From Clostridia bacterium (lineage in GTDB: Bacteria; Bacillota; Clostridia; Christensenellales; Aristaeellaceae): DNA of 63,043 bases. The notes beneath the pieces were generated by a model, which was given only the letters and a program-made list of their open reading frames with translations, was not told the DNA's origin and did not search any database. The stretch is taken from assembly GCA_030530315.1 (NCBI GenBank), contig JAUMVG010000010.1:1-63043 (forward strand). Direction: 5' to 3'. Of the stretch, positions 7,054 through 48,779 are shown in pieces. The translations under genes and the position numbers were made by a program. Numbering within the stretch: position 1 is the stretch's first letter; each line of letters begins with the position of its first letter.

Positions 7054-7118
7054 TGTGAAGTCTCCTTGCTTATGATTCGTAGGGGACGACAACTTGGAAG
7101 TTGTAGGGCTGAAGCCCA

Positions 7119-7369
7119 GGGAAAAGGGATAAGGGAAAAGGGAAAAGGAATAGTGACTGCCGCACAGAGAATCAATCCTTTGATACAAAGGCGGAGAGGT
7201 TGTTCCTTTCACGAAATGCTTTGTTTTACGGTATGTTTGAGGGTTACGGCCTCTCAGTCATCGACTACGTCGGTGCCAGTTCACCTGAGAAGTGAATCAA
7301 GAAGGTTACGCTCCTGCGTGGCAACTACTTTTCCTTTTCCCTTTTCCCTGTTCCCTTTTCCCTGACTCT
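7119..7369. repeat. Heptamer repeat locus A (inverted pair, purD/purL gap)
   Basis: Five 7-bp units at 7119-7153 (GGGAAAA, GGGATAA, GGGAAAA, GGGAAAA, GGAATAG) face an inverted array at 7329-7369 (TTTTCCC, TTTTCCC, TGTTCCC, TTTTCCC, TGACTCT). About 175 nt lie between them; I see no gene there, only a small CCTTTGATACAAAGG hairpin. In the minus-strand transcript the arms could pair into a long G-rich/U-rich stem. The right arm is 27 nt behind the purD stop. Confidence 0.85.
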
Positions 7370-9486: not shown

Positions 9487-9656
9487 GTTCAGAGTTCAGA
9501 GTTGAGAGTTGAGAGAAAGTCAGCCGCGCGAGAATCGAATTTTGATCTATATCATCTGTTCCCGCGAAAAGCCCAAGTTTTATGGCAGACAAAGTATCTT
9601 CCTTCGCCCTTCGGCACTCTTTATCTTAACTCTTCACTCTTAACTCTAAACTCTCG
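9487..9656. repeat. Heptamer repeat locus B (inverted pair)
   Basis: Four units at 9487-9514 (GTTCAGA twice, GTTGAGA twice) face four inverted units at 9626-9653 (TTAACTC, TTCACTC, TTAACTC, TAAACTC). The insert of about 110 nt has no open frame. The right array ends 5 nt before the stop codon of the AICAR transformylase gene at 9659. Confidence 0.85.
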
Positions 9657-9658
9657 CT

Positions 9659-10837
9659 TTAGTGGTGGAACAGCCTGATCCCGGTGAAGGCCATGGCCAT
9701 GCCGAACTCGTCGCACTTGGCGATCACCTGGTCGTCGCGGATGGAGCCGCCGGGCTGGGCGATGCAGGTCACGCCGCTGCGCTTGGCGCGCTCGATGTTG
9801 TCGCCGAAGGGGAAGAAGGCGTCGCTGCCCAGCGCCACGCCGGTCACGGTGTCCAGCCAGGCCCGCTTCTCCTCCCGGGTCAGCGGCTCGGGGCGGCGGG
9901 TGAACAGGCGCTCCCAGCGGCCCTCGCCCAGCACGTCCTCCCAATCCTCGGAGATGTACACGTCGATGGCGTTGTCGCGGTCGGGACGGCCGATGTCCTC
10001 CCGGAAGGGCAGGTTCAGCACCTTCTCGTGCTGGCGCAGGTGCCAGTTGTCCGCCTTGCCGCCCGCCAGGCGGGTGCAGTGGATGCGGCTCTGCTGGCCG
10101 GCGCCCACGCCGATGGCCTGGCCATCCTTGGCGAAGCAGACGGAGTTGGACTGGGTGTACTTCAGCGTGATCAGCGCCACCAGCAGATCGCGCTTCTCGG
10201 CGTCGGTCAGCGTCTTCTTGGCGGTCACCACATTGGCGAGCATCTCCTCGTCGATCTTCAGCGCCTGGCGGCCCTGCTCGAAGGTGATGCCGAACACCTG
10301 CTTGCGCTCGATCTCAGCGGGCACATAGGCGGGGTCGATCTTGATGATGTTGTAGCCGCCCTTGCGCTTCTCCTTCAGCACGGCCAGCGCCTCGTCGGTG
10401 TAGCCGGGGGCGATCACGCCGTCGGAGACCTCGTGGCGGATCAGCTGGGCCGTGGGCAGGTCGCACACGTCGGACAGGGCGATGAAGTCGCCGAAGGAGG
10501 ACATGCGGTCCGCGCCGCGGGCCCGGGCATAGGCGCAGGCCAGCGGGGAGAGCTCCATGTCCTCGGGCACGAAGTAGATCTTCCGCAGCACATCGCTCAG
10601 CGGGTTGCCGATGGCCGCGCCCGCGGGGCTGACGTGCTTGAAGGACGCCGCGGCGGGCATGCCGGTGGCCGCCTTCAGCTCACTGACCAGCTGCCAGCTG
10701 TTCAGCGCGTCCAGGAAGTTAATGTAGCCGGGCCTGCCGCTGAGCACCTCCAGGGGCAGCTCGCCGCCCTCGAGGAAGATGCGGGAGGGCTTCTGGTTGG
10801 GGTTGCAGCCGTACTTCAGTTGAATCTCATGTGCCAT
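9659..10837 (-). CDS. Stand-alone AICAR formyltransferase
   Basis: The 392-residue protein matches the AICARFT half of PurH and lacks the N-terminal IMP cyclohydrolase (MGS-like) domain. It transfers a formyl group from 10-formyl-THF to AICAR, giving FAICAR. Typical elements are LKYGCNPNQKP at the N-terminus, SFKHVSPAG with the catalytic Lys-His pair (about 66-74), KYTQSNSV and the C-terminal SDAFFPFGDNIERA and AQPGGSIRDDQV. The start ATG 10837 follows GGAGGGTTCATC. The missing cyclohydrolase is supplied by the purO gene 13 nt upstream, so the pair replaces bifunctional PurH. A heptamer array follows the stop. Confidence 0.93.
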   Translation of the reverse strand: MAHEIQLKYGCNPNQKPSRIFLEGGELPLEVLSGRPGYINFLDALNSWQLVSELKAATGMPAAASFKHVSPAGAAIGNPLSDVLRKIYFVPEDMELSPLACAYARARGADRMSSFGDFIALSDVCDLPTAQLIRHEVSDGVIAPGYTDEALAVLKEKRKGGYNIIKIDPAYVPAEIERKQVFGITFEQGRQALKIDEEMLANVVTAKKTLTDAEKRDLLVALITLKYTQSNSVCFAKDGQAIGVGAGQQSRIHCTRLAGGKADNWHLRQHEKVLNLPFREDIGRPDRDNAIDVYISEDWEDVLGEGRWERLFTRRPEPLTREEKRAWLDTVTGVALGSDAFFPFGDNIERAKRSGVTCIAQPGGSIRDDQVIAKCDEFGMAMAFTGIRLFHH

Positions 10838-11693: not shown

Positions 11694-12310
11694 TAAACCG
11701 GATTTTGCGAAGCAAGACCCAGCTCCCTTGCCACCTCTTCCGCCGCCTTCGGTAGCAGGATCCACTCGGCCTGCTCCATCACCCGGCGCTGGAGCACCTC
11801 CGGGGTGTCCCCCGGCAGGATCTCCACGGCCTTCTGGGCGATGATGCGCCCGCCGTCGGGAATCTCGTTCACGTAGTGCACCGTCGCGCCGGTCACCTTC
11901 ACGCCGTAGTCCAGCGCCGCCTGGTGGACCCGCAGCCCGTAGAAGCCCTCCCCACAAAAGGAGGGGATCAGGGACGGGTGCACGTTGATGATCCGCTCCG
12001 GGAAGTTGGCCACGAAATCCGCGGACAATATGGCCATGAACCCGGCGAGGATCAGCATGTCGATGCGCTTTTCCCGCAGGATCTCCAGCAGCCGCGCCTC
12101 GAAGTCGCGCCTCGGCTCCCCCTTGGCCCGCAGGCACAGGGCGGTCTCGATGCCCGCCCGCTTCGCCCGCTCCAGGGCGAAGGCCTCCGCGTTGTTGGAG
12201 ACCACCAGCGCCAGCTCCCCGTGGGGAAGCTCGCCCCTGGCCGCGGCATCGATCAGCGCCTGCAGATTCGTGCCTCCGCCGGACACCAGCACCGCGATGC
12301 GCGTCCTCAT
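11693..12310 (-). CDS. purN: Phosphoribosylglycinamide formyltransferase (GAR transformylase)
   Basis: The 205-residue enzyme formylates GAR with 10-formyl-THF, step three. It begins with the phosphate-binding [16 protein letters not shown]. The catalytic trio is Asn109 and His111 in INVHPSLIP and Asp152 in NEIPDGG. The SFCGEGFYG segment is a Clostridia-type variant of the usual loop. The start ATG 12310 overlaps the purM stop as ATGA, so the genes are coupled. The stop codon TAG is embedded in heptamer array C. Confidence 0.97.
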
Positions 12311-13350
12311 ACCAGCGCCACCCGCTCGTCGCCGGGCACGACCTCGCCGATGATCCGCGCGTCCTCGCCCGCCTCGCGCAGCACGCTCACCGCGCGGTCC
12401 GCCTCCGCGGCGTCCACGGCGACGCACATGCCGATGCCCATGTTGAAGGTGTTGTACATGTCCCGCATGGGAATGTTGCCCGCGCTGGCAATGCGGTCAA
12501 ACAGCGGGTGCCCGCCGATGCGTTTCAGCTCGATACAGGCCGTCAGCCCCTCTGGCAGGCTCCTCGGAATGTTCTCGTAGAAGCCGCCGCCGGTGATGTG
12601 GCTGACGGATTTCACCGTCACCGCCTCCGCCAGCTTCAGGATGGGCTTGACGTAGATCCGGGTGGGGGTCAGCAGCGCCTCGCCCAGGGTGGTTCCCAGA
12701 TCGTCGCAGTAGAAGTCCAGGCCGCCATTCTCCACGTCGAACACCTTGCGCACCAGCGAGAAGCCGTTGCTGTGCACGCCGGAGGAAGGCAGGCCAATCA
12801 GAGCGTCCCCGGCACTGACGGTGTCCGGCTTGAACAGCTTGTCCCGGTCCACCACGCCCACGGAGAAGCCCGCCAGGTCGTACTCGTTTTCGGGATAGAA
12901 GCCGGGCATCTCGGCGGTCTCGCCGCCGATCAGCGCGCAGCCCGCCTGCACGCAGCCCTCGGCCACGCCGGAAACGATCTGCGCAATCTTCTCCGGCACG
13001 TTCTTGCCGCAGGCGATGTAGTCCAGGAAGGTCAGCGGCTTCGCGCCGCAGCACACGATGTCGTTGACGCACATGGCCACGCAGTCGATGCCCACGGTGT
13101 CGTGCTTGTCCATCAGGAAGGCCAGCTTCAGCTTGGTGCCCACGCCGTCGGTGCCGCTCACCAGCACGGGGCGGGTCAGGCCGGTCATGTCCAGCTCAAA
13201 CAGCCCGCCAAAGCCGCCGATGCCGGACACCACCCCAGGGATGTTCGTCCGGGCGATGTGCCGCTTCATCAGCTCCACGGCCCTGTAGCCCGCCGTGATG
13301 TCCACGCCTGCCGCGGCATAGCTTTCAGATCTCGATATGTTCTTCGCCAT
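12307..13350 (-). CDS. purM: Phosphoribosylformylglycinamidine cyclo-ligase (AIR synthetase)
   Basis: The 347-residue enzyme closes FGAM to AIR with ATP, step five. It has the glycine-rich substrate loop [14 protein letters not shown], the [20 protein letters not shown] segment, the [14 protein letters not shown] motif and the C-terminal [13 protein letters not shown], all typical. The start ATG 13350 follows GAGGAGATTT. It is the first gene after heptamer locus D and its stop overlaps the start of purN. Confidence 0.97.
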
Positions 13351-13368
13351 ATAAATCTCCTCAAATAA

Positions 13369-13815
13369 GAGTTGAGAGTGAAGAGTTAAGAGTGGAGATT
13401 GAATTGTGGATCAATCCATTCCAGACAGGGTCTTGGTCGTCGCCGTCAGGATTTTGCGGATTTCCACCGCATCTTCCTGTATACTGTTATACTCTTCTTG
13501 GCTGATAAACCCAGTATCCATCAGCAGCTCTATCCAGTACTGTGTCTCAGCGCATTCCTTAAGAGCTATGTAGACCTTTGCTCCAAAGTCCTTCTTGCTG
13601 ATCGCACATTCAGCCTCAGCCAGATTTGCGCCGATGGCAGTTCCGCTTCTCAGCAGCTGTTTGGATAATACATATTCCTTTTTCTCATCACAGAGATAAG
13701 AATATAGCTTGACAATTCGGATGGCAAACCGCTTGCTCTTGTCAAACCCCGCGCCTATCTGTTTGCTCCATCTTTCTTGACTCTCAACTCTAAACTCTTA
13801 ACTCTGAACTCTACT
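13369..13815. repeat. Heptamer repeat locus D flanking an S23 gene
   Basis: Four units at 13369-13396 (GAGTTGA, GAGTGAA, GAGTTAA, GAGTGGA) face five inverted units at 13777-13811 (TTGACTC, TCAACTC, TAAACTC, TTAACTC, TGAACTC). The right array runs through the purF stop codon at 13811. The 380-nt insert holds the four-helix-bundle gene at 13411-13771, in lower-GC DNA than its neighbours. The layout resembles a 23S rRNA intervening sequence, where an S23 ORF sits between inverted repeats. Confidence 0.9.
13411..13771 (-). pseudogene. Four-helix-bundle (S23, 23S rRNA intervening sequence) protein, one-base frameshift
   Basis: The span is 361 nt, one base more than 120 codons. From ATG 13771 the frame reads MEQTDRRG, then breaks at a four-base G run (13747-13750 on the plus strand). 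Removing one base joins it to FDKSKRFAIRIVKLYSYL and then EYVLSKQLLRSGTAIGANLAEA, followed by KVYIALKECAETQYWIELL, which are hallmark segments of the S23/Avd-like four-helix-bundle family. The corrected product is 119 residues. No standard start codon exists in the downstream frame. The family binds RNA or assists reverse transcriptases in some settings, but its role is unclear. The break may be a real mutation or a sequencing or assembly error. The gene is bracketed by inverted heptamer arrays and its G+C is lower than that of the pur genes, which suggests transfer. Confidence 0.8.
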
Positions 13816-15229
13816 CATCGATTCCGCGTTCGAACCGGGTCTTGTCCGGCTTCCTGGGCGGGGTGCAGGGGTACTTGCCGTCAAAGCAGGCAGTGCAGAA
13901 TCCAGTGGTGTTCTCCGCCAGCTTGTGGGCGTTTTCGCAGGACAGGTAGCCCAGCGAATCGACGCCGATGATCTGCCGGACCTCCTCCACGGTGCGGTTC
14001 CAGGCCACCAGGTTCTCCTGGCTGTCCACATCCGTGCCGAAGTAGCAGGGGTACAGGAACGGCGGCGCCGAGGAGCGCATGTGCACCTCGGTGGCCCCGG
14101 CGTCCCTCAGCAGCTGCACGATGCGGGCACAGGTGGTGCCGCGCACGATGCTGTCGTCCACCAGCACCACGCGCTTGCCCTTCACCGTGGCGGAGACGGG
14201 GTTCAGCTTGATGCGCACCTTGTTCTCCCGGTCGGACTGGGTGGGCTGTATGAAGGTGCGGCCGATGTACTTGTTCTTGATAAAGCCGATGCCGTAGGGA
14301 ATGCCGGAGGTCTTGGCGTAGCCGATGGCCGCGTCCAGGCCGCTGTCCGGCACGCCGATGACCACGTCCGCGTTCACCGGGTGCTCAAGCGCCAGGAAGC
14401 TGCCGGCCCGCTGCCGGGCCATGTGCACGCTGCTGCCGTCCACCACGGAGTCCGGCCGCGCGAAGTAGATGTACTCAAACACGCACAGCGACTTCTCGCA
14501 CTCGCCCACGTGGCTCTCGTCGCTGCGCAGGCCGTTCTTGTCCACGATGACCACCTCGCCGGGCTTTACGTCCCGCAGGAAGGTGGCGCCCACGGCGTCC
14601 AGCGCGCAGGTCTCTGAGGCGAAGATCACGCTGCCGTCCGGCCGGCTGCCGACGCACAGTGGATGGAAGCCGTGGGGGTCGCGGGCCGCGATCAGCTTCG
14701 TGGAGGACATCACCACGAAGGAATAGGCGCCGTCCAGGTGATCCATCGCCCGGCTGACCGCCTCCTCGATGGAGGCGGAGCGCAGCCGCTCCCGAATGAT
14801 GATGTGGGCGATGATCTCGGAATCGCTGGTCATGTGGAAGATGGAGCCGCTCAGCTCCAGCTCCTCCCGCAGCTCGCTGGCATTGGTCAGCGAACCGTTG
14901 TGCACCAGGGACATCAGGCCCTTCACGTGGTTGACCACGATGGGCTGGGCGTTCTGCACCGGGTTGATGCCCGCCGTACCGTAGCGCACGTGGCCCACGG
15001 CCATGTTGCCCTTGCCGAGGTAGTCCATCTCGTCCTTGGAGAACACTTCCTCCACCAGGCCCGCGTCCTTGTGGGTGCGCAGGCGGCCCCGCTCGTTCAC
15101 GGTGATGCCCGCGCTCTCCTGGCCACGGTGCTGCAGCGCGAACAGCGCGTAGTAGCAGTCGGAGGCCACGTCTATGACCTTGGGATTATAGATGCCGAAT
15201 ACGCCGCATTCCTCATGGATATTGCTCAT
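13811..15229 (-). CDS. purF: Amidophosphoribosyltransferase (glutamine PRPP amidotransferase)
   Basis: The 472-residue enzyme catalyses the committed step, PRPP plus glutamine to phosphoribosylamine. A seven-residue propeptide precedes the nucleophile Cys8 in HEECGVFG, and the Ntn-hydrolase domain spans about 8-230. The PRPP loop is VVLVDDSIVRGTT (about 355-367). Cysteines in CVFEYIYF, PCYFGTD and GFCTACF fit the four ligands of the B. subtilis-type 4Fe-4S cluster that makes the enzyme oxygen-sensitive. The start ATG 15229 follows AAAGG; an upstream ATG at 15268 lacks a site. The stop codon lies inside heptamer array D. Confidence 0.97.
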   Translation of the reverse strand: MSNIHEECGVFGIYNPKVIDVASDCYYALFALQHRGQESAGITVNERGRLRTHKDAGLVEEVFSKDEMDYLGKGNMAVGHVRYGTAGINPVQNAQPIVVNHVKGLMSLVHNGSLTNASELREELELSGSIFHMTSDSEIIAHIIIRERLRSASIEEAVSRAMDHLDGAYSFVVMSSTKLIAARDPHGFHPLCVGSRPDGSVIFASETCALDAVGATFLRDVKPGEVVIVDKNGLRSDESHVGECEKSLCVFEYIYFARPDSVVDGSSVHMARQRAGSFLALEHPVNADVVIGVPDSGLDAAIGYAKTSGIPYGIGFIKNKYIGRTFIQPTQSDRENKVRIKLNPVSATVKGKRVVLVDDSIVRGTTCARIVQLLRDAGATEVHMRSSAPPFLYPCYFGTDVDSQENLVAWNRTVEEVRQIIGVDSLGYLSCENAHKLAENTTGFCTACFDGKYPCTPPRKPDKTRFERGIDE

Positions 15230-15320
15230 ACGAATACCTTTCGCTCCTTTGAAGGTTGGAAAAAACAAGACCCGTTACTTTGGCGAGGCGGGACACTCCA
15301 ATCCAAAACAGCTATCTGAC

Positions 15321-32603: not shown

Positions 32604-32673
32604 GCGCCGGCAGGCTGAGCCTGCACCCATTTGCTGCCGCCATTAAGCGCAGGGCGCTTAACCCCATTTGCTA

Positions 32674-32926
32674 CCGCCTTTAAGCGCAGGGCGCTTAACC
32701 CCGATTGCTACCGCCTTCCTATTATCAATTCCCAGCGCCACTGATCCAAGCGCCGGGAATTGTCGTTGATACGATTCAGTTTTGCTCGGGCAACGCCTGC
32801 ACCAATCTGCCGCCTTTAAGCGCAGGGCGCTTAACCCCGATTGCTACCGCTTTTCTATTATCAATTCCCGGCGCCACTGATCCAAGCGCCGGGAATTGTC
32901 GTTGGTGCGATTCGGTTTTGTTCGGG
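32674..32926. repeat. Two 117-bp direct repeats at the tetR 3' end
   Basis: Copies at 32674-32790 and 32810-32926 are over 90 percent identical by eye. Each contains the hairpin AAGCGCAGGGCGCTT and a second inverted pair, CCCGGCGC/GCGCCGGG, in a CAATTC...GAATTG frame. A third, partial copy of the first hairpin lies at 32643-32658. The second copy encodes the last 20 or so codons and stop of the tetR gene; in the first copy the same frame is broken by a TGA. The structure fits a local tandem duplication and may also terminate both convergent genes. Confidence 0.8.
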
Positions 32927-36559: not shown

Positions 36560-36745
36560 AGCGCGACTGCGCGCGAATGTGTTCTGGCTCATGCTTCAAC
36601 GCTTGGCTTCGCCTTCCCAGCCCGTTTGGGGCCAGTGACCGGCAGTTTTCCTGCCATGAAGCCTCGCTCTGCAAATACAGCAACGCCCTTGCGCGGGAAT
36701 CTCACCCGACTTCCTGGTGCGATCACACACCAAAATTCGCGTCAG
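36560..36745 (-). promoter_or_regulatory. Cobalamin riboswitch
   Basis: Reading the minus strand, the leader contains in order GTCGGGTGAGATTCCCG, GGGCGTTGCTGTA, GGTCACTGG, CTGGGAAGGCG, and the B12 box GAGCCAGAACAC. This order and wording match the cobalamin aptamer. A CACCG/CGGTG hairpin stands right before the GAAGGAG site of the binding-protein gene and may form part of the expression platform. The element should repress import when corrinoid is plentiful. Confidence 0.85.
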
Positions 36746-45529: not shown

Positions 45530-45640
45530 GTGCGGAGGGTGGAGGGTGGAGCTGAAACGCCGCTTTTCGTCAGCCTTCAATCAGAGGAAATCCGCAGGAT
45601 TTCCACCTGAACTCCACTCTTGACCCTCAACTCTAAACTC
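45530..45640. repeat. Heptamer repeat locus F (inverted pair)
   Basis: Three units at 45530-45550 (GTGCGGA, GGGTGGA, GGGTGGA) face four inverted units at 45613-45640 (TCCACTC, TTGACCC, TCAACTC, TAAACTC). The short insert contains the hairpin GGAAATCC-GCA-GGATTTCC. The right array ends 3 nt before the binding-protein stop codon. Confidence 0.8.
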
Positions 45641-47721: not shown

Positions 47722-47888
47722 GTTTGGAATGTGGAGTGCGGAGTGTGGAGTTATAGATTGCCCGGGAACGATACAACGTCAGTACGTCCGGCAAATCCGA
47801 TGTATTCACGGGAACAAACCCTCGTTTTCCCGCAATCATCGGTTCACGGCTTACTTTAACTCCACACCCAACTCTCCAAACTCCACTC
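47722..47888. repeat. Heptamer repeat locus G (inverted pair)
   Basis: Four units at 47722-47749 (GTTTGGA, ATGTGGA, GTGCGGA, GTGTGGA) face five inverted units at 47854-47888 (CTTTAAC, TCCACAC, CCAACTC, TCCAAAC, TCCACTC). The right array ends exactly at the reversed stop codon of the LplC-type permease at 47889. The insert of about 105 nt has no open frame. Confidence 0.85.
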
Positions 47889-48779
47889 TTATTCCTTCAC
47901 GCCGCCGGCGTTGGTGCCCTTGGCGAAGTACTTCTGGATGAAGGGATAGATGATGAGGATCGGCACGATGGAGCACACGATCAGCGCGTAGATGACAGAA
48001 TCGGAAGCGTAGGTCTCGTTCCAGCCCGCCATGGTCTCGGAATTGGTATAATCCTCGAGCGTCAGTCGAATGAAGACCTGCAGCGGATGCTCGTGGGAGT
48101 TGGAGATCATCTGCCGCGCCCAGAAGTAGCCGTTCCAGCGGGAAATGGCGAAGAACAGCGCCACGGTGGCGATGGTCGATTTGGACATCGGGATGAACAC
48201 CTTGGACAATACGCCGAACTCCGTCGCGCCGTCCACGATGGCAGCCTCCTCGATCTCGGAGGGCACATTCTCAAAGGCGTTTCTCAACAGGATGATATTC
48301 ATGGCCGCCATGCCCATGGCGATGACCACCAGCCACTTGTCGTCCATGATGCCCATCGAGTTGAACACCTTCTTGGTGGCCAGGTAGTTCAGGTACTGGG
48401 GCACGATGCCGGCGGAGAACCACATGGTGAACACCAGGTAGAAGTTGAACACCTTGCGGAACAGAAGCCGCTTCTTGGACAGCGCATACGCGCCGAGGAT
48501 CGACACGCCCAGCGCCCACACCGTGCCGAAGACGGTCAGGAACAGGGTATTGGAATAGGAGTTCCAGAACATATTGTCGTTGAACATCCGGCGGAAGGCG
48601 TCGAACTGGATGTCCTTGGGGAACAGCACCACCTCGCCGTAGTCCACCGCGTGCCGCCCGCTGATGGAGGCCGACACCGCGTACAGGAACGGGTACAGGC
48701 AGCCCAGGGCGAACACCGTCAAAAGCGTATAGCTGACGATCTTGAAGATCAGCTCGGAGACCTCAAGCTTTCTTTTCAC
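47889..48779 (-). CDS. Sugar ABC permease, LplC/YtcP type
   Basis: The 296-residue permease has six membrane segments and the inner-membrane EAA loop EEAAIVDGATEFGVLSKVFI (about 185-204). It belongs to the MalG-type branch with large binding proteins. I prefer the GTG start 48779, since GGGGGG lies 6 nt upstream; TTG 48785 would abut it. It forms a heterodimer with the LplB-type permease encoded just upstream. Confidence 0.92.
   Translation of the reverse strand: MKRKLEVSELIFKIVSYTLLTVFALGCLYPFLYAVSASISGRHAVDYGEVVLFPKDIQFDAFRRMFNDNMFWNSYSNTLFLTVFGTVWALGVSILGAYALSKKRLLFRKVFNFYLVFTMWFSAGIVPQYLNYLATKKVFNSMGIMDDKWLVVIAMGMAAMNIILLRNAFENVPSEIEEAAIVDGATEFGVLSKVFIPMSKSTIATVALFFAISRWNGYFWARQMISNSHEHPLQVFIRLTLEDYTNSETMAGWNETYASDSVIYALIVCSIVPILIIYPFIQKYFAKGTNAGGVKE

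Follow-up and report, generated by a model that had tools for sequence, protein, structure and literature searches.

The purF-purM element and its S23 frame

The window, i.e., the entire stretch of DNA that was analysed (63,043 nucleotides of the genome designated G000), carries an S23 element in the spacer between the purine genes purF and purM (Table 1). A first-pass annotation of this DNA had proposed that an S23 gene, readable once a one-base shift is allowed for, lies here between inverted heptamer arrays, and each part of that description is confirmed. The arrays are detected by TRF, and the minus-strand frame matches both PF05635 (positions 13444-13743; 100.3 bits, E 2e-28, cut-off 33.8) and TIGR02436 (positions 13441-13761; 105.3 bits, cut-off 24). 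A run of four C on the plus strand is present in the window sequence at the place of the shift. The frame is open, yet no ORF with an ATG, GTG or TTG start is listed for it, and the upstream ATG leads to a stop in another frame. The window element is probably a copy broken by a one-base shift, for which a sequencing error and a true mutation would look the same in the present assembly.

The predicted model of the window protein consists of four helices (pLDDT 96.3) and resembles 2rld (TM 0.97), the solved structure of BT_0352 of Bacteroides thetaiotaomicron, as well as 2gsc, with Avd less near. Both the profile scores and the fold, the latter from the predicted model, place the protein in the S23/four-helix-bundle family. 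The two arms are inverted copies of each other, with units AGAGTTA and, after reverse complementation of the other arm, TGAGAGT, which differ by one mismatch after rotation. Apart from S23, the coding strand of the 447-nt element holds no sizeable frame, and no transposase, recombinase or reverse transcriptase of its own was found within it. Elsewhere in the window, a cobalamin riboswitch was noted at 36579-36714 (minus strand), as was a 136-bp repeat in nearly two copies with AAGCGCAGGGCGCTTAAC hairpins at 32626-32926.

Table 1. Positions of the S23 element, its neighbours and the cargo-free members in the window
Feature	Position	Strand	Basis and remarks
S23 element, arm to arm, in the purF-purM spacer	13367..13813	-	Arrays, S23 frame and inverted arms; empty junction in G027, G021 and G019
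5' arm (S23 sense), period-7 array AGAGTTN	13780..13813	-	TRF; overlaps purF stop codon, starts -2 nt from the stop
3' arm (S23 sense), inverted period-7 array	13367..13403	-	TRF; inverted-copy comparison
S23/four-helix-bundle reading frame, no in-frame start codon	13441..13761	-	Profile matches; one-base shift at 13747-13750 relative to upstream ATG
purM, downstream neighbour	12307..13350	-	ORF list; named from translation
purF, upstream neighbour	13811..15268	-	ORF list; named from translation
Cargo-free member, AGTTNAG arms	9487..9654	-	Abuts stop codon of gene 9659-10837; interior resembles other genomic copies
Cargo-free inverted pair, unit AGGGAAA, 180-nt interior	7118..7363		TRF; pair scan
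Cargo-free inverted pair, AGTGTGG-type unit	47725..47889		TRF; paired by eye, left arm scored solo in the array count
Degenerate inverted pair GGAGGGT / CTCCACTCT...	45534..45640		TRF; paired by eye, left arm scored solo in the array count

Heptamer arrays and S23 genes across bacteria

S23 loci were drawn from the relatives of the genome, its family and its phylum, from named genomes (by similarity) and from named plasmids, as a fetched subset of the S23 matches listed; the 215 loci were reduced to 211 by dropping one duplicate (L047) and three loci with short flanks. Period-7 arrays were scored when they lay no more than 260 bases from S23 on the side in question. The first-pass annotation had linked S23 genes to heptamer-bounded units, a link that S23 genes elsewhere without such arrays would have reduced to chance. 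Arrays lie on both sides of S23 in 137 of the 211 loci, on one side in 34 and on neither in 40, compared with 4 two-sided cases at 1,621 control places elsewhere in the same loci, none of these four with matching units; the link thus withstands this comparison and goes beyond chance. Likewise, a smaller earlier set of 149 loci gave 106 two-sided cases versus 1 of 1,698 controls, while periods 4-6, 8-10 and 12 yielded none and period 11 yielded one. Chance occurrence of period-7 arrays is ruled out by the control places and by the other periods. In 118 of the 137 two-sided loci, the unit of one arm equals the reverse complement of the other when one mismatch is allowed (87 of them have none), whereas units match this well in 9.5% of mismatched pairs of loci in the 149-locus set.

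The rate of two-sided arrays varies among the sets: 34/49 for the relatives, 13/22 for the family, 9/12 for the plasmids and 59/78 for the similarity-chosen set (80 loci, L053-L132), whose rate is biased upwards because its 18 query proteins all came from two-sided loci. The phylum sample of 50, composed of the thirty best-scoring loci (17/30) and 20 others hand-picked from the remaining list (5/20), has two-sided arrays in 22 loci, with matching units in 16 of these 22. The arms match less often in the best-scoring thirty of the phylum (11/17) and in the plasmids (6/9).

From arm to arm the elements have a median length of 476 nt (quartiles 443-516), with a median arm of 32 nt, or about 4.5 units; 127 of 264 arms measure 31-33 nt. 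Read in the S23 sense, the unit has the consensus A-R-T-K-V-R-N, with an alignment score of 411 versus 298-322 when column order was shuffled within loci; the consensus was derived from the same loci that it describes (126 kept, arms agreeing in <60% of columns left out). Across 57 similarity-chosen loci of many phyla, the first four positions agree with the consensus at 95% (A), 95% (R), 90% (T) and 95% (K). Agreement is lower in the phylum sample, where the 22 loci give 68%, 95%, 76% and 65% at these positions. The unit varies from locus to locus, yet it is common to both arms of one locus.

Unit type tracks S23 lineage, not insertion site. Above 80% S23 identity, units are equal within one mismatch in 93% of 28 pairs, compared with 1-8% below 60% identity. 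Among 132 loci (those with arm agreement in <60% of columns excluded), unit distance falls as S23 identity rises (Mantel r -0.26, unreached in 2,000 permutations), as it does among pairs below 60% identity (-0.14, likewise unreached by permutations). Within the genus of the window genome, AGGG units accompany 14 of 15 group-A S23 genes and none of 17 group-B genes, and several genomes hold both groups. The rule is loose outside the genus, where GGG occurs in 3 of 18 A-like loci and in 3 of 96 B loci; Nostoc edaphicum, from another phylum, has an A-like S23 with AGGGAAC arms. A phage search with one group-A S23 gave no match.

Arm lengths correlate weakly within loci (Spearman 0.24), and arms can vary in length independently of each other (L159/L160, L245/L247). 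The close relatives L159 and L160 differ by one unit (7 nt) in one arm, and the close relatives L240 and L252 by one unit in both arms, L252 being the shorter. Concerted change of arm length is not claimed, L252 speaking for it and L245/L247 and L159/L160 against it.

A third S23 subfamily has no heptamer arrays, as judged by eye, and may represent a parallel solution or a different element. Its loci (L020, L025, L027, L028, L029, L043, L048, L050, L051, L138, L145, L152, L226 and L227) instead show, mostly upstream and by eye, long composite palindromes in which a tag links the short hairpins; this tag, private to the locus (GCGATAT, ATGATG, ATGAAG, GTGATAT and others), is direct in one half and reverse-complemented in the other.

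Arrays also occur apart from S23. In 453 kb of the window genome there are 31 period-7 arrays versus 0-7 for periods 4, 5, 8, 10, 11 and 13, the 41, 39 and 50 arrays of periods 6, 9 and 12 being as expected from coding sequence. S23 was undetected in 8 of 28 genus genomes, four of which still have arrays at purF-purM. Such arrays could be ordinary slippage-prone intergenic repeats, with S23 among them by chance as a passenger or host gene. In keeping with this, arrays lacking S23 are the commoner kind (in the 453 kb, S23 accompanies two of seven inverted pairs, and a further 17 arrays are solo), and unit number differs between close relatives. This reading is nevertheless very improbable and is largely refuted by the excess of two-sided arrays over control places, by the tracking of S23 lineage by the unit, and by the occurrence of S23 loci with two-sided arrays in many phyla and in named plasmids.

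Filled, empty and cargo-free sites

Junctions at purF-purM, at gyrB-gyrA and at the L324 site were read by eye. Among 17 readable purF-purM junctions, S23 is present in G000 only; three are empty (18 nt in G027, 33 nt in G021, 48 nt in G019), and the remaining 13 contain solo or paired arrays or remnants, mostly of other units. Of the 25 gyrB-gyrA loci, ten hold S23 flanked by arrays of four unit types, three are empty (27, 31 and 48 nt), one has an internally deleted S23 (G024), one is cut by a contig end and ten have other sequence. The S23 tree is ordered by unit type rather than by insertion site: two gyrB-gyrA S23 genes with AGTAGGG units group with AGTAGGG S23 genes of a second site with moderate support (91/86, 92/86), two others fall in no supported group, and the AACAGGG pair forms a firm clade (100/99).

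Three Nostoc plasmids carry an S23 element within a DNA cytosine methyltransferase gene, part of which is missing, and the gene is intact in two relatives. At a second Nostoc plasmid site, two plasmids have an S23 element, two a short native spacer, one a cargo-free array pair and one other sequence. The L324 site holds a cargo-free element in G000 and a different element, with another unit, in the nearest relative G023; in the other 18 loci fetched, from 26 genomes with a match, no heptamer element was seen by eye. The element is thus mobile, being present or absent at orthologous sites, as follows from the empty sites, the hot spots with different elements, the methyltransferase gene that is interrupted in some plasmids and intact in relatives, and a dispersed cargo-free family. 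A check for target duplication produced one candidate, an 8-nt repeat at the L327 site that is not flush with the right arm, and the Nostoc insertions have imprecise junctions with target loss.

Several side observations concern these sites. The empty methyltransferase gene (L253, L254) has CAATTCG at the very position where the arrays of the inserted element, themselves built of CAATTCG, start (L240, L241, L252); that the target supplies the unit is not claimed, since this is a single Nostoc case for which microhomology is an equally good reading. The gyrB-gyrA spacer of several species (L258, L264, L265, L268, L270, L285) contains an unrelated palindromic repeat, CTCCCTCAGTC...GAGGGAGCC. Some genome bins may mix strains, as two gyrB ends with different neighbours occur in one bin in both G011 (C2, C69) and G022 (C173, C344). 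S23 elements also lie within defence and CRISPR operons (L235, L243, L244, L246), between hsdS and hsdR, drmD and mmeI, or cas6 and cas4.

The dispersed cargo-free family, to which the window copy with AGTTNAG arms belongs, has a common interior of about 105 nt, and its arms are of the unit class of the S23 element in the window. One interior, used as a query, matched 14 places in the window genome, including two fragments of a single element, with the window copy below the cut-off; among the 27 other genomes of the genus the same interior was found at 1-3 places in four and at none in 23. The first-pass annotation had suggested that heptamer loci without S23 could be cargo-free derivatives. 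This is partly borne out, by the gyrB-gyrA element of G024, whose S23 appears by eye to be internally deleted, and does not extend to the repeated family, which resembles the S23 element in its arms alone: no similarity of its interior to that element was found. MITEs are short non-coding copies with inverted ends, and the family, judged on its arms and interiors, likewise consists of short, dispersed and apparently non-coding copies, which have inverted ends and were amplified in a single genome. It differs from MITEs in that its ends are tandem 7-nt arrays with no clear target duplication, and we know of no matching transposase. Near heptamer arrays at L161, L310 and L320, another dispersed element was noted, with ends like GAGTGTGTTTCTAAA / TTTAGAAACAGACTCT.

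Orientation within the genus was determined with a codon model trained on the purine genes of the window. Among 36 S23 loci, 31 are co-directional with both neighbours and none is against both; one of the others has an opposed upstream gene, and four lack one neighbour. Cargo-free copies, both neighbours of which were called in 13 of 14, face with them in 7 cases and against them in 6 (Fisher p 2.4e-4 for the contrast with S23 loci). Because operon genes share direction anyway, this contrast is the telling part. A cruder gene caller applied to all sets gave 56 loci with both neighbours, 7 against both and many unclear; it placed L017 against its neighbours, contrary to the codon model, under which L017 lies with them. 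Of 11 S23 pairs, four are saturated; the other seven have dN/dS ratios of 0.03-0.09, five of them at dS >1. These ratios indicate that the S23 protein is under purifying selection, which, combined with its shared direction, implies that either the element or the host requires S23, whose expression probably comes from read-through.

Purifying selection on S23 and the predicted stem would also suit a regulatory role, in which the arms are kept as an RNA stem for S23 or the host (operon attenuation or mRNA processing) and movement is incidental. The position of the insertions points the same way: of the 29 own-genus loci whose upstream frame is clear, 28 have the start of the 5' array at -7 to +26 nt relative to the stop codon of that frame (the exception, L007, has its start at 114). 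Such a role is quite unlikely to explain the arms, given that sites are empty in near relatives and occupied by other elements in others, that cargo-free copies face either way, and that one insertion breaks a gene.

Mechanism and relation to other systems

The gene and its arms are co-inherited and occur together in many phyla and sites, these sites are filled or empty depending on the species, and cargo-free copies have spread. It is fairly probable that S23 and its inverted, private 7-nt arrays constitute a small mobile element that moves as DNA, with S23 as an arm-binding helper. Under this proposal, S23 would be a helical bundle without catalytic activity, expressed by read-through of the host operon, and, to judge from its fold and co-inheritance, would bind the arms in a folded (cruciform or hairpin) form. 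Host replication or repair enzymes, or an unrecognised enzyme acting in trans, would copy the element into a new place, and copying across the folded ends would keep both arms alike, so that the unit would drift as one. Insertions would survive mainly directly after stop codons or in RNA loops, with the paired arms closing the insert off.

A different route would run through RNA: the arms would pair in the transcript, RNase III would excise the insert as it does in 23S rRNA, and a reverse transcriptase aided by S23 would copy the RNA back, as in a diversity-generating retroelement (DGR) with its Avd protein. Several observations are consistent with this route. S23-bearing copies are co-directional with host genes, some S23 loci lie in 23S rRNA and RNase P RNA, and the arms of the window element are predicted to pair as RNA (z -5.1 versus shuffles). 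In addition, the predicted model of the window S23 resembles Avd in the DGR reverse-transcriptase complex (8ub7_E, TM 0.81, E 0.073; also 4dwl_D, TM 0.79), and three of seven S23 proteins tested match DivGenRetAVD below the cut-off (best 47.9 bits versus 80). None of the seven S23 proteins reaches the Avd cut-off, and the window protein gave no match to the Avd profile and is not assigned to the Avd equivalog.

The RNA route is rather unlikely in view of the following results. Searching G000, a 94% complete genome, for RVT_1 gave 0 matches, and RVT_1 is present in 8 of 28 genus genomes and in 6 of the 20 that are S23-positive; a reverse transcriptase in trans is thus not required, unless one was missed. 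In a wobble test on 126 loci, 59 arm transitions were tolerated by pairing of the sense RNA versus 64 that were not, and with no bias to G.U-compatible changes the test gives no support to RNA pairing as what keeps the arms alike. The cargo-free copies, moreover, are without orientation bias. The lack of wobble bias and of an RVT_1 match in the same genome favours the DNA route. For that route, Y1_Tnp was considered as a transposase in trans: it occurs in 16 of 28 genus genomes and gave no match in 8 of the 20 S23-positive ones, and so is not universal among S23 carriers. Searches of the genus genomes for RVT_1 and Y1_Tnp yielded no moving enzyme for the element, and no clear target duplication was found.

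Dispersed palindromic intergenic repeats with a linked RAYT (Y1 transposase) gene and many gene-free copies are known as REP/BIME. The S23 element shares with them the dispersed intergenic repeats, the linked protein gene and the many gene-free copies, and differs in that its linked protein is S23, for which we know of no nuclease motif, and in that its ends are lineage-private 7-nt tandem arrays. No Y1 transposase gene linked to the repeats was found in the window element; one Y1_Tnp lies on another contig of G000.

Intergenic period-7 arrays have also been described as heptameric repeats of Nostoc, Xanthomonas (GGGAATC) and Beggiatoaceae (TAACTGA), with 70 and 75 close inverted heptamer pairs reported in two Xanthomonas genomes (PMC4692102). 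GGGAATC and TAACTGA are each one mismatch from ARTKVRN, a weak likeness, since 77% of letter-shuffled units are equally close. A count of S23 gives 0 in the available portions of the heptamer-repeat papers PMC4692102 (Xanthomonas) and PMC4679880, and in the open-access literature, as represented by listings and parts of papers, no link between S23 and heptamers was found apart from the Coxiella heptamers (PMC4990558).

The intervening sequences (IVS) of 23S rRNA are also close to the S23 element. They consist of an S23 ORF within terminal inverted repeats and are similar to it in size and patchy distribution, and the window copy has terminal inverted repeats that form a stem in the predicted fold. 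It differs in its location between two purine genes and outside rRNA; no rRNA was detected by Rfam in the window. The Coxiella IVS (428 nt) has tandem GACAGAT heptamers ahead of its S23 ORF, in a copy number that varies among strains (PMC4990558). The same paper refers to earlier suggestions that IVS are what remains of transposition or of mobile elements, and it gives reasons for thinking that S23p is not made in Coxiella; those sections of it that were available make no mention of private units common to both arms or of mobility across the genome.

The first-pass annotation had likened the window element to these IVS, and the likeness proves to be more than analogy. Rfam, run on 20 of the 50 phylum-sample loci, placed five S23 loci within the 23S rRNA gene (L203, L213, L219, L223 and L225) and a sixth within RNase P RNA. 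Each of the six has an inverted stem, 29-35 nt long (e.g., GGTTAGATGTTAGAGGTTAGAAGTTGGA in L203), with a best period of 7 on at least one side; the array threshold is reached on both sides in L203 and L217 alone. In light of these period-7 stems and of the Coxiella IVS heptamers, the IVS looks like a special case, best seen as an S23-heptamer element inserted in a structured RNA.

Taken more broadly, these results may define a class of transposable element that is undescribed in the searched literature and lacks a polymerase or transposase of its own, a proposal that could equally well prove right or wrong. Its members would combine a non-catalytic S23 bundle with inverted 7-nt arrays that share an A-R-T-K core and are otherwise private in their letters, the arms being rewritten together by fold-back copying while the lineage drifts. 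The IVS of 23S rRNA, the RNase P RNA insertion and the four-helix genes found here and there in operons for defence and metabolism would be its traces, and so, perhaps, would the heptamer repeats known from Nostoc, Xanthomonas and Beggiatoaceae. Three puzzles would thereby be joined, namely, the origin of the 23S rRNA IVS, what the widespread and unexplained S23 genes do, and why intergenic heptamer repeats are so abundant. S23 genes inside operons (cas6|S23|cas4, drmD|S23|pglX and hsdS|S23|hsdR), which could be mistaken for defence genes, would be explained as well. The mechanistic question that this raises is how two separate arms keep one private 7-letter word, and S23 would gain a testable job, that of binding the heptamer arms.
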